From Chroogloeocystis siderophila 5.2 s.c.1 (GTDB lineage: Bacteria; Cyanobacteriota; Cyanobacteriia; Cyanobacteriales; Chroococcidiopsidaceae), in NCBI RefSeq assembly GCF_001904655.1, contig NZ_MRCC01000010.1, forward strand, positions 124,001 through 188,000: DNA of 64,000 bases, given 5' to 3'. Position numbers and translations under genes: made by a program. Positions 6,171 through 48,343 of this stretch are shown piece after piece. Under the pieces are notes generated by a model that did not search any database, was not told the DNA's origin, and saw only the letters and a list, made by a program, of their open reading frames with translations. How positions within the stretch are numbered: position 1 is the first letter of the stretch; each line of letters opens with the position of its first letter.

Positions 6171-6195
6171 TAATTTTGAGTCAGATTTTTTTGAA

Positions 6196-6238
6196 ACGAA
6201 CCACAGAGTCGCAGAGATCGCAGAGGAAAGAGTTAAGG
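6196..6238 (+). repeat. CGAACCACAGAG-type interspersed repeat, copy 1
   Basis: Sequence of the form aacgaaccacagag-N-cgcagag-N-cgcagagg-aaagagtta, lying between hisC and xdhC. Two relatives occur in the window: one inside the xdhC coding region (6791-6866) and one at 48296-48343. The shared core is AACGAACC(A/G)CAGA followed by CGCAGAG units. Confidence 0.7.
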
Positions 6239-6270
6239 AGGGATTCGCATGAAGTGAGGGTGGCGTTTGT

Positions 6271-7284
6271 TTAAGTGAAAATGGTTGTAGTGACTGCATT
6301 GGATAAGGATTTAGCTGTACCACCACGACGCACTTTGATTAATTCGGCACAAATACTTACTGCGATTTCTTCAGGTGTCAAAGCACCGATATCTAACCCA
6401 ATGGGTGCATAAAGTGATGCTAATACTTTTGGGGGATATCCTTCTTGTTGCAATTGCTGACGTACAAGGTGTACTCGCTTGCGCGAACCAATCATCCCAA
6501 TATACTTTGCTGGTGTTTTTAGTAGAAACCGTAAAGCTTCTAGATCGTGTTGAATTCCCCGCGTCACTAGTGCAACATACTGTGAATTTAATGCACAAGT
6601 TAACGCCAATGTCAAGGGTTGAGCAATCACCGCATTCGCTTGGGGAAACCTTTCACGTGTAGCAAATTCAGCGCGATCGTCAACTACAGTCACCCGAAAC
6701 CCAATCATCGCTGCGATCGCTGCCAAAGGAACCGCAACATGACCCGCCCCCACAATCAACAGCGTTGGTAACGGCATCAAAACCTCTCTAAAAGCTCCTC
6801 CTCTGCGTTCTCTGCGTACGCCAGTTGACACCTCCGCACGGGACTGGCTCCTCTGTGGTTCGTTATCCCCAACCTCCAAATAAGGTTGCAAATCCCCTGA
6901 AAACGGCATCACCAAAGTCTCACACCCACCACTTGACAAAACTTCAATAATTTGCTCTACTAACTTAATCGCCTCATCTCCACTCCAACGTTCCAGCCAA
7001 ACTTGCATTGCCCCACCACAAACCCCCTGAGTTTTGCGCTGCGACGCCCCAGATAAATCGATTTCTACAACTTGTTTCTCACCCGTTACCAAAACTTCTA
7101 AAGCTTGGCGAATGACTTTAGCTTCCCCAGCACCACCGCCAATTGTGCCAATCGTGCGATCGCGACATACGAGCATTTTTGCCCCTACCTCACGCGGAAC
7201 TGAACCAGTGACACTCACAACCGTGGCAAGAACAACTGAATCTTGTCGTAAGGCTTGCGCCATTTGTTGATAAAATTCAAGCAT
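6271..7284 (-). CDS. xdhC: XdhC family molybdenum hydroxylase maturation factor
   Basis: XdhC proteins bind molybdenum cofactor, assist its sulfuration and insert it into xanthine dehydrogenase. The 337-residue protein has the N-terminal XdhC/CoxI domain (VLATVVSVTGSVPREVGAKM, GGAGEAKVI, GVCGGAMQVWLE) and a C-terminal Rossmann domain (TLLIVGAGHVAVPLAAIA; later ALVTRGIQHDLEAL and YIGMIGSRKRV). About 27 residues between the two domains are encoded by an interspersed repeat at 6791-6866 that keeps the frame. It is the last gene of the operon and overlaps the upstream molybdenum subunit by 8 bases, so translation is probably coupled. Confidence 0.9.
   Translation of the reverse strand: MLEFYQQMAQALRQDSVVLATVVSVTGSVPREVGAKMLVCRDRTIGTIGGGAGEAKVIRQALEVLVTGEKQVVEIDLSGASQRKTQGVCGGAMQVWLERWSGDEAIKLVEQIIEVLSSGGCETLVMPFSGDLQPYLEVGDNEPQRSQSRAEVSTGVRRERRGGAFREVLMPLPTLLIVGAGHVAVPLAAIAAMIGFRVTVVDDRAEFATRERFPQANAVIAQPLTLALTCALNSQYVALVTRGIQHDLEALRFLLKTPAKYIGMIGSRKRVHLVRQQLQQEGYPPKVLASLYAPIGLDIGALTPEEIAVSICAELIKVRRGGTAKSLSNAVTTTIFT
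6791..6866 (-). repeat. interspersed repeat inserted in frame within xdhC (copy 2, with nested palindrome)
   Basis: On the minus strand the ends read aacgaaccacagagg and agagaacgcagagg, matching copies at 6196 and 48296. Between them sits a second element with inverted ends GCCAGT (6820-6825) and ACTGGC (6843-6848). Together they encode an Arg/Glu/Ser-rich linker (from EPQRSQSRAEV to RRERRGGAF) in xdhC that has no counterpart in the usual two-domain layout. Confidence 0.7.
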
Positions 7285-29237: not shown

Positions 29238-29270
29238 CCCCTGACCTCCGACCTCTGACCTCCGACCCCT
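29238..29270. repeat. CTGACCTCCGACCT repeat, copy 1
   Basis: Pyrimidine-rich run of CTGACCTCCGAC and CTCTGACCTCC units between murB and ybaB. A second copy lies at 29886-29918. Short repeats of this type are widespread between cyanobacterial genes. Confidence 0.6.
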
Positions 29271-29704: not shown

Positions 29705-29885
29705 ACTAAGAGCTAGGGGCGAGGAGCAACGGGGGAGTGAAAGAGTAACTAGTGGAAGAGTTTTGGAAAGCGAAGAAAGATGTTAGAGGCATTTATTAAA
29801 AGAAGTGTTTTAACTTATAACTCTCTTAAACTCATCACTCTCAACGAGTAACTCATCACTCTAACTACTATCCTCTGCTTTCCAT

Positions 29886-29918
29886 CCCCTGAACTCCGAC
29901 CTCTGACCTCTAACTCCT
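29886..29918. repeat. CTGACCTCCGACCT repeat, copy 2
   Basis: CTGAACTCCGACCTCTGACC followed by TCTAACTCCTC, directly upstream of the phosphatase start at 29923. It matches the copy at 29238. The preceding 29780-29880 stretch also has repeated ACTCATCACTCT units. Confidence 0.6.
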
Positions 29919-35613: not shown

Positions 35614-36786
35614 TCACTTAAAATTAATTCTTATTAAAGAAAGGTCATCATCAAAATTATTGCCATGATTTAAAGCTTGAAGCTGGTTTAGGATCTGCTT
35701 CAAATGTATGTTTTGTTGGTGTGAATCGACTATCAACCGGATGAAGGCTTTTTTTCCCCAAATCCTACCATCAGGTTGAAAAATTTCGTAAGCGCCATCA
35801 CTAAAAATATATACAGTACTCTTTTCTTGTAAATATATAACGTCTTGTTCAAATTCAGTCTCAGGTAAAAAGCCGATAGGTAAACCTGATGAATCTAACT
35901 GCTTGACTTGCAGATTTGCAGTCGTACTTGCTAATAAAATAGCGGGTGGATGACCAGCACTAGCATAACTAAGTTGGCGCTGAATGCGATTATATACTCC
36001 ATACCAGATTGTGAAGTATTTTTCGCCATGGTCGCTCATTTGAAAAGTGTTATTCAGCGATTTTAAAACTGCATTAGGTTGATAAAAATTGGTGTTAGGC
36101 AAAGATTGCGATCGCAACATATTTAGTACTGACACAGATAGCAATGCTGAACCTACACCGTGTCCTGAAACATCGAGTAAATAAATAACTAAATGCTGGT
36201 CATCTAACCAGTAGTAATCAAAGCAATCGCCTCCGAGTTGCGTGGAAGGAATAAATAAGCTTTCGGTTGTTACAGTTCCTTTAAGGGGTGCAGGAAGAAG
36301 CGATCGCACATAGCTACTTGCTTCGGCTAATTCGGTTTCTAAAAGTTGTTTTTGATGTTGTAAATCTTGATTGAGTTTTTCTAAAGATTGCTTTTGGGCT
36401 TGTAAATCTTGATTGAGTTGATATAAACGTAATCCTGCTCGTACTCGTGCTTTTAATTCATTGACGTCAATTGGTTTCGCTAAGAAATCATCGGCTCCCG
36501 CATCAAGCCCCATGATTCGATCTTCAACTTTTCCACGTGCAGTGAGTAGAATAAAAAAAGTCGTAGCTAGTTTTGGATTAGCTTTGATTAAACGACATAC
36601 ATCCAGTCCATTCAAATGAGTCATCATCCAATCACAAATAATTAGCGCTGGATGTATTTGTTGTGCTTGGCTAATTCCCGCTTCACCATCACTAACAACT
36701 ATGACATCATAGCCTTGGTTTTGTAATGCTCTTTTGAGGACTACTCGAATTGTAGGATCGTCATCAATAATGAGGATTTTAAACAT
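35614..36786 (-). CDS. receiver-PP2C phosphatase (RsbU/RsbP-like)
   Basis: A 390-residue response regulator whose output is a serine phosphatase. The receiver (1-120) has ILIIDDD, phospho-Asp in LIICDWMMTHLNGLDV, LLTARG and FLAKPID. A coiled coil (about 125-160, repeated LNQDLQ-QKQ-LE units) links to the PPM/PP2C domain (about 170-388) with metal-binding Asp residues in GGDCFDYYW, LLDVSGHGVGSALLS, IFSDGAYE and FDDDLSLIRI. In partner switching it would dephosphorylate the STAS protein when phosphorylated by a histidine kinase; the giant kinase at 37309-42927 is the nearest candidate. Divergent from the RsbW-like gene with about 100 bases between. Confidence 0.92.
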   Translation of the reverse strand: MFKILIIDDDPTIRVVLKRALQNQGYDVIVVSDGEAGISQAQQIHPALIICDWMMTHLNGLDVCRLIKANPKLATTFFILLTARGKVEDRIMGLDAGADDFLAKPIDVNELKARVRAGLRLYQLNQDLQAQKQSLEKLNQDLQHQKQLLETELAEASSYVRSLLPAPLKGTVTTESLFIPSTQLGGDCFDYYWLDDQHLVIYLLDVSGHGVGSALLSVSVLNMLRSQSLPNTNFYQPNAVLKSLNNTFQMSDHGEKYFTIWYGVYNRIQRQLSYASAGHPPAILLASTTANLQVKQLDSSGLPIGFLPETEFEQDVIYLQEKSTVYIFSDGAYEIFQPDGRIWGKKAFIRLIVDSHQQNIHLKQILNQLQALNHGNNFDDDLSLIRINFK

Positions 36787-48295: not shown

Positions 48296-48343
48296 AAACG
48301 AACCGCAGAAACGCAGAGGACACAGAGAAAAGAGTTAGAGAAA
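48296..48343 (+). repeat. CGAACCACAGAG-type interspersed repeat, copy 3
   Basis: Reads aaacgaaccgcagaaacgca then gaggacacagagaaaagagttag, very like copy 1 at 6196-6238. It lies in the 119-base spacer between the [2Fe-2S] protein gene and the binding protein gene, in the middle of the putative operon. Confidence 0.7.

Follow-up and report, generated by a model that had tools for sequence, protein, structure and literature searches.

XdhC of Chroogloeocystis siderophila carries a probable solo end of a GxxExxY mobile element, itself interrupted by a hairpin element

We analyzed a window of 64,000 nucleotides (nt) from Chroogloeocystis siderophila 5.2 s.c.1 (contig NZ_MRCC01000010.1, positions 124,001 to 188,000), in which an interspersed repeat lies inside the coding sequence of xdhC. 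We found that this repeat is a composite of an outer unit and a nested hairpin element, and we think it probable that xdhC carries the solo end of a GxxExxY mobile element that was later invaded by the hairpin and is tolerated by XdhC. In this genus, the whole GxxExxY element forms a discrete, sharply bounded insertion, and most tested GxxExxY loci in two phyla have matching inverted flanks. Precise hairpin insertion is demonstrated by empty sites for two relatives of the xdhC copy.

The xdhC gene lies on the minus strand at positions 6271 to 7284 of the window (coding, 6274 to 7284; stop codon, 6271 to 6273) and encodes 337 amino acids. Pfam domains XdhC_CoxI and XdhC_C match residues 14 to 76 and 175 to 315, and the repeat falls between them, which agrees with an earlier reading made from the sequence alone (the sequence-only reading) that had placed the repeat in frame between two domains. 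The outer unit occupies 6800 to 6864 on the minus strand and is interrupted after CACAGAG by the nested 33-nt element GAGCCAGT..ACTGGCGT (6818 to 6850, minus strand). Its halves are AACGAACCACAGAG (6864 to 6851) and ACGCAGAGAACGCAGAGG (6817 to 6800), and the DNA order from 6864 to 6800 is AACGAACCACAGAG [GAGCCAGTCCCGTGCGGAGGTGTCAACTGGCGT] ACGCAGAGAACGCAGAGG, where the inner bracket marks the insert at 6850 to 6818. The outer halves read N-E-P-Q-R..R-R-E-R-R-G in frame. The sequence-only reading had proposed a linker of 27 residues; instead, the repeat-derived stretch is 65 nt or about 22 codons (NEPQR-SQSRAEVSTGV-RRERRG, in the protein ..GDNEPQR SQSRAEVSTGV RRERRGGAFRE..). The hairpin adds 11 of these residues, and the outer unit adds almost no length. 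Outside the linker, the ratio of nonsynonymous to synonymous distance (dN/dS) is 0.13 to 0.21 against five relatives, and xdhC remains under purifying selection. The solved homologue 3on5 has a different, somewhat longer stretch at the position of the repeat.

CACAGAG-type repeats occur beside GxxExxY genes, and we therefore searched for PF13366. Here, G000 denotes the genome under study, G011 to G015 denote relatives in genera g1 and g5, and G016 and G005 belong to other genera. We found one match each in G000 and G011, at the same position between prk and valS, and no match in G012. The gene scored 144 bits in G011 and 114.8 bits in G000 with TIGR04256 (cut-off, 35) and 143.7 and 118.3 bits with PF13366 (cut-off, 22). 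Both genomes have the order outer unit, GxxExxY gene, inverted outer unit. In G000, G011, and G014, the unit-gene-unit element sits between a T8 run and CCTTCCAT, whereas in G012, G013, and G015 the T8 run is joined directly to (C)CTTCCAT (T8^CTTCC or T8^CCTTCC). The T8 run is also present without the element in G016 and G005. Other family members have a different prk-valS arrangement or lay outside the alignment, and the insertion evidence comes from this one locus. The ends of the insertion are sharp (AACGAACC / (A)ACGAACC and GGTTCGTT), and we saw no clear target duplication there. The gene is intact in G011, where the far unit holds a nested hairpin, and is frameshifted near its C terminus in G000. 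Because this is the sole GxxExxY gene found in G000, the family may no longer move in that genome. With some differences, the xdhC repeat shares AACGAACCACAGAG..CGCAGAG..CGCAGAGG with the insertion ends of G011 and G000 and, judged by this likeness, appears to be one terminal unit of the GxxExxY element. The filled prk-valS sites are scattered over two genera that both also have empty members, which may reflect several insertions into one T run, exact loss of the element, or exchange.

Matched flanks were found around GxxExxY genes well beyond this genus. GxxExxY matches were present in 58 of 291 cyanobacterial genomes (54 above the cut-off) and in 39 of 78 planctomycete genomes (a sample of the phylum around Aquisphaera), in 8 of 72,556 plasmid records, and in none of 50,697 phage records. 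We took 92 cyanobacterial loci (30 chosen automatically, the next 60 listed, and L224 and L225; weaker places were excluded) and scored the left flank against the reverse complement of the right wherever 600 bp was available on both sides. The threshold of 22 is the 95th percentile of control pairs 380 to 600 bp away. The score exceeded 22 at 78 of 83 testable cyanobacterial loci, with a median of 56 versus 17 for the distant control and 18 in direct orientation. At 20 loci, the locus's own partner flank ranked first among all 83; many loci have related units. The matches are mostly short quasi-repeats, and the unit type varies by locus (CACAGAG, CGCAAAG, CGCCAAG, CGCAGAT, and GATT- or ATCCTG-rich). 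Among planctomycetes, 31 loci were taken and 29 were testable; 25 of these scored above 22, versus 5 of 29 distant controls (medians, 41 versus 18), and 12 exceeded the control maximum of 46, while a few were weak or of low complexity (L366, L357, and L367). Both Aquisphaera loci have a convincing inverted match. The eight plasmid loci scored 45, 36, 22, 17, 18, 23, 15, and 22, with controls at 18, 30, 16, 18, 14, 20, 16, and 21. Control genes rarely passed the threshold (0 of 16 for prk, 2 of 24 for xdhC, and 1 of 6 for Y1_Tnp, after 2 of 18, 1 of 25, and 1 of 7 loci, respectively, proved too short). The residues G-x2-E-x2-Y, D, E-x-K, and Q-x3-Y were invariant in all 88 intact cores among the 92 GxxExxY proteins, a set of residues that corresponds to PD-(D/E)XK nucleases whose Q-x3-Y is RecB-like. 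At one further locus (L278 of G178), both terminal units of the GxxExxY gene hold the same nested insert (TTCGCGCAGCGTCTCGTAGAGAAG), which suggests that one element end was copied to the other.

We found that the outer unit and the hairpin recur separately in the genome. With the composite region (6780 to 6880) as the query, a search of the genome returned two more composite copies (E values, 2.8e-16 and 7.6e-14; identities, 81% and 79%). It also gave five weaker matches of partial length, of which three cover the inner part and two the outer part. The 5' part of the outer unit, AACGAACCRCAGAG, with at most one mismatch, matched 51 times in G000, 60 times in G011, and 19 times in G012, whereas the backwards controls gave 1, 3, and 2 matches. 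Exact GCCAGT..ACTGGC palindromes occurred at 16 places in G000, versus 4 for the backwards control, and 11 of the 16 have the hairpin design by eye. Such recurrence is not due to chance. On inspection by eye, we discarded four of the 51 G000 matches (L203, L210, L214, and L215) because they looked accidental or had a single quasi-repeat, which leaves about 47 outer units. In this genus, the unit consists of three quasi-repeats spaced 8 and 9 bp apart, and its consensus has no stable hairpin (folding z, +0.76).

Two intergenic copies named by the sequence-only reading were found again on the plus strand. One lies at 6195 to 6240, between an aminotransferase gene and xdhC, and is polymorphic in relatives: the unit is absent from G014, contains a nested insert in G011, and is part of a multilevel nest in G015. 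In that G015 spacer (L057), the outer unit holds a GCCAGT..ACTGGC hairpin, which in turn holds further GAG..CGT hairpins. The other copy, at 48297 to 48343, is flanked by the palindrome arms TATAGC..GGATTGCTATA. Outer units are frequently central in TATAGCAATCC..GGATTGCTATA-type palindromes (L008, L043, L025, and L199), and comparison of L008 with L420 of G011 revealed that the entire palindrome, with its outer-unit cargo, is missing in G011. A wider scan of the collection gave 88 stretches with the outer unit, and 80 loci were listed; judging from names, we take 79 of these to be cyanobacterial and one, Aquisphaera, to be planctomycete. Many Nostocales outer units are placed inside other palindromes that have terminal repeats of their own (TAGGACTTACGCA and TTAGGGACTTCC). 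Outer and hairpin elements are both present at some and absent from other orthologous sites of related species, and both have therefore moved on an evolutionary time scale. Together with the low dN/dS of xdhC, this bears out the earlier claim that the repeats can move and be tolerated in a gene.

The nested element in xdhC consists of GAG, a palindrome (6848 to 6820), and CGT, and internally it is 12 nt shorter than the 45-nt copies. Close to the first quasi-repeat, an insert splits 12 of the approximately 47 G000 outer units, as judged by eye. Nine of these (L170, L182, L201, L206, L208, L211, L003, L008, and L018) hold a GAG..CGT-type hairpin that follows CACAGAG or a near variant of it and always has one orientation relative to the outer unit, and three (L204, L207, and L209) hold TAGG..-type inserts after CACA. 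Inserts deeper in the unit, such as L009 and L128, are undercounted because an intact 5' part was the criterion for selecting units. Some hairpins (L011, L013, and L017) are not located within an outer unit. At two loci, the orthologous empty site is exact, with G011 reading CACAGAG^ACGC: the insertion is 47 or 48 nt at L201 (one base is arbitrary) and 45 nt at L182, with neither loss nor duplication of the target. These empty sites, together with the plain xdhC units of three relatives, uphold the earlier proposal that the palindrome is a second insertion. Three full-length hairpins folded with z values below -5 relative to shuffles, while the xdhC copy (z, -0.5) folded no better than its shuffles.

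We then compared 25 xdhC orthologues, comprising nine close ones (63 to 100% identity) among 19 genomes of the family and 16 from 120 genomes of the order. The outer unit was found in the linker of 6 of the 25, which are all six members of genera g1 and g5, and no unit was found by motif in the 19 orthologues outside these genera; the G014 unit was read by eye, as a nested insert splits the motif there. The outer unit is thus shared with related species rather than peculiar to this one. The unit is plain in G012, G013, and G015, and the GCCAGT hairpin is found only in G000 among the six. In G011 and G014, the unit instead contains another insert, common to both and about 27 nt long (TTCCCCGCAGGGG..GAAGGCTAG), which is located elsewhere in the unit, after CACA. 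Opposite residues 136 to 165, the linker measures 48 to 51 nt with a plain unit and 72, 84, and 90 nt with nested inserts, versus 36 to 63 nt in 18 of the 19 orthologues without the unit; the 19th (L341) gave 153 nt, a value we distrust since its match starts only at residue 163. An earlier measure by regular expression agrees for the loci that it caught (9 of 16). Nested inserts therefore lengthen the linker clearly and the outer unit hardly at all, and so the outer unit replaced or overwrote linker sequence. A separate observation concerns xdhC itself: its synonymous distance (dS) from G000 is smallest for G015, of the other genus (0.27, versus 0.41 to 0.43 for the two congeners), hinting at gene exchange.

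The xdhC copy is not alone in lying within a gene. Six of the approximately 47 G000 outer units are inside genes, encoding XdhC, CobN, a phosphoenolpyruvate (PEP)-synthase-like protein, a P-type ATPase, an XPB helicase (near the C terminus), and a DUF429 protein (antisense). This count leaves out L038 and L043, where an open reading frame (ORF) overlaps the unit near a possible start codon, and L037, where only 17 codons separate the unit from the end of an RsmB-like ORF. Compared with solved homologues, the CobN segment has a net gain of 8 residues and the ATPase segment a gain of 3. The outer unit in the PEP-synthase-like gene is common to G011, where a 30-nt nested insert of its own keeps the frame open. 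In the collection scan, 1 of 70 testable copies lay inside an ORF by the criteria used, and it was again in CobN (L092, Kastovskya).

According to our model, the outer repeat would be the solo terminal unit of a small element whose sole gene encodes GxxExxY (PF13366, a PD-(D/E)XK nuclease). The nuclease would bind the quasi-repeats and cut at the ends, by which the element could be freed or copied, and solo units might be spread by its action in trans, as is thought for RAYT proteins acting on REP sequences (discussed below). The nested element belongs to a second family, of GAG-arm..arm-CGT hairpins that usually measure 45 to 48 nt and enter outer units after CACAGAG, as the two empty sites show for relatives of the xdhC copy. 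XdhC would tolerate both elements because they sit in an interdomain linker of variable length and the frame is kept. A broader proposal, for which we see the case as evenly balanced, is that GxxExxY proteins act as mobility nucleases for a class of bacterial transposable elements that is widespread but unrecognized and has short quasi-repeat terminal units at its ends. Solo ends of such elements would be the CACAGAG-, CGCAAAG-, or CGCAGAT-type repeats of cyanobacteria and planctomycetes, which would enter genes in frame and serve as landing pads for at least two second-order hairpin families, giving nests several levels deep.

Several observations weigh against this model. Transposition was not directly seen, and only one of 83 within-genome GxxExxY pairs showed clear similarity (0.90; L293/L287 of G061), the rest being at or below 0.80 by a lenient measure that gave nearly all listed flank pairs 0.62 to 0.80; since all pairs but one have diverged, nothing points to a recent burst. 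Only 30 of the 83 cyanobacterial flank scores were above the control maximum of 64, which was exceeded also by 9 of 83 scores in direct orientation, and a few of the 78 matches lie far from the gene, are doubtful, and may be due to chance (L300 and L274). By eye, only two of the eight plasmid loci are convincing (Bacteroides and Bernardetia), and one of these has a high control. The comparison of outer-unit copy number with the state of the GxxExxY gene covers only three genomes (51 matches where the gene is frameshifted, 60 where it is intact, and 19 where there is none). Solo units are mostly distant from GxxExxY genes, with no such gene within 1 kb at any of the 80 loci that the collection scan listed. 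The near-zero gain in length from the xdhC outer unit is not accounted for by simple insertion, which we rejected for that copy.

The lack of GxxExxY genes near those 80 loci is what would be expected if the outer unit were an independent interspersed repeat that owes its spread to slippage, to recombination, or to some other transposase, and if GxxExxY genes had another role (e.g., as restriction-like or repair nucleases) and did no more than land or shelter in such units. The many Nostocales copies inside other palindromes fit this as well, as some units, including that at L008 versus L420, spread as passengers. However, the prk-valS units arrived together with the gene at a site that is free of units in G012, G013, G015, G016, and G005, and, in two phyla, the two flanks of one gene match each other in types of unit that vary between loci. 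We consider an independent repeat unlikely.

Gene conversion, by which an old, degenerate linker unit of xdhC was overwritten in this species by a composite from another locus, is a tentative possibility that concerns the last step only and is compatible with a GxxExxY origin of the unit. The G000 xdhC unit has CGCAGAG-type repeats, while four of five relatives have CACAAA-type repeats; it is 6 nt longer than that of G012 besides the insert; and the identical kind of composite exists at two other G000 loci. Yet nested hairpins occupy the same point in units with different flanks, and G011 has a matching hairpin-free unit at two loci, where direct insertion suffices. Co-option of the linker repeat for a function, such as setting XdhC linker length or forming an RNA hairpin that acts on the xdh operon, would account for the retention of the outer unit in six close orthologues. 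We regard it as very improbable, since linker sequence and length vary freely (36 to 63 nt without and 48 to 90 nt with the unit) and the xdhC hairpin has lost 12 nt and the folding strength of the three full-length copies. We favor a solo GxxExxY end in xdhC.

Because of its flank pattern, its empty site, and its invariant nuclease residues, the broadly distributed GxxExxY family is a testable candidate for a mobility enzyme, and one class of short interspersed repeats could have its origin in GxxExxY elements. In xdhC, the consequence would be that element ends become parts of a protein linker and are then invaded themselves. The window also has repeats of other kinds. Those at 29238 to 29270 and 29872 to 29918 are of the CCTCTGACCTCCGACC type, distinct from the outer unit, and 36336 to 36419 is a direct tandem repeat of two adjacent 42-nt copies that are 86% alike.

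These elements resemble several known systems. The small dispersed repeats (SDRs) of cyanobacteria that Elhai et al. described in 2008 are reportedly 21 to 27 nt long. None of six repeat strings of 16 to 17 nt was present in the open literature that we searched, a comparison whose scope did not extend to those SDR families; in the same literature, the name GxxExxY appears in only two papers and PF13366 in one, and the passages with GxxExxY concern other topics and give no role. SDRs are likewise very small mobile repeats in the account excerpted from PMC4390886, which also says that SDR5 inserts precisely within HIP1. Like miniature inverted-repeat transposable elements (MITEs), our elements are short and nonautonomous, and some outer units lie inside palindromes with terminal repeats (TATAGCAATCC, TAGGACTTACGCA, and TTAGGGACTTCC). 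Unlike MITEs, solo outer units have no terminal inverted repeats by eye, although the complete GxxExxY insertion has inverted ends, and there is no target duplication at prk-valS or at the two nested empty sites.

The closest parallel in arrangement is with repetitive extragenic palindromic (REP) sequences, the REPINs that they form, and their REP-associated tyrosine transposases (RAYTs), together called REPtrons: passages in PMC3116915 and PMC3733652 describe small, dispersed solo repeats, some of them in genes, and a nuclease or transposase gene flanked by them. The enzyme differs, being PD-(D/E)XK (PF13366) here and an HUH Y1 transposase there, and the outer unit is not palindromic but consists of its three spaced quasi-repeats. 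No GTAG-type tag was noticed by eye in the outer copies, and no count was made. A RAYT/Y1 transposase was set aside as the mobilizer of the outer unit, though it is not disproved for the hairpins: G000 has only a fragment (one PF01797 match over 35 of 121 positions, with a stop inside), and an inverted flank match above 22 was present at one of six Y1_Tnp loci, which came from three genomes. Rickettsia palindromic elements (RPEs), as portions of PMC3733652 present them, insert in frame within ORFs; they differ in that here only the nested element is a hairpin. The mark of RPEs, in-frame copies in the genes of several unrelated proteins, is also found here, in six genes of G000 and, for CobN, in Kastovskya as well.
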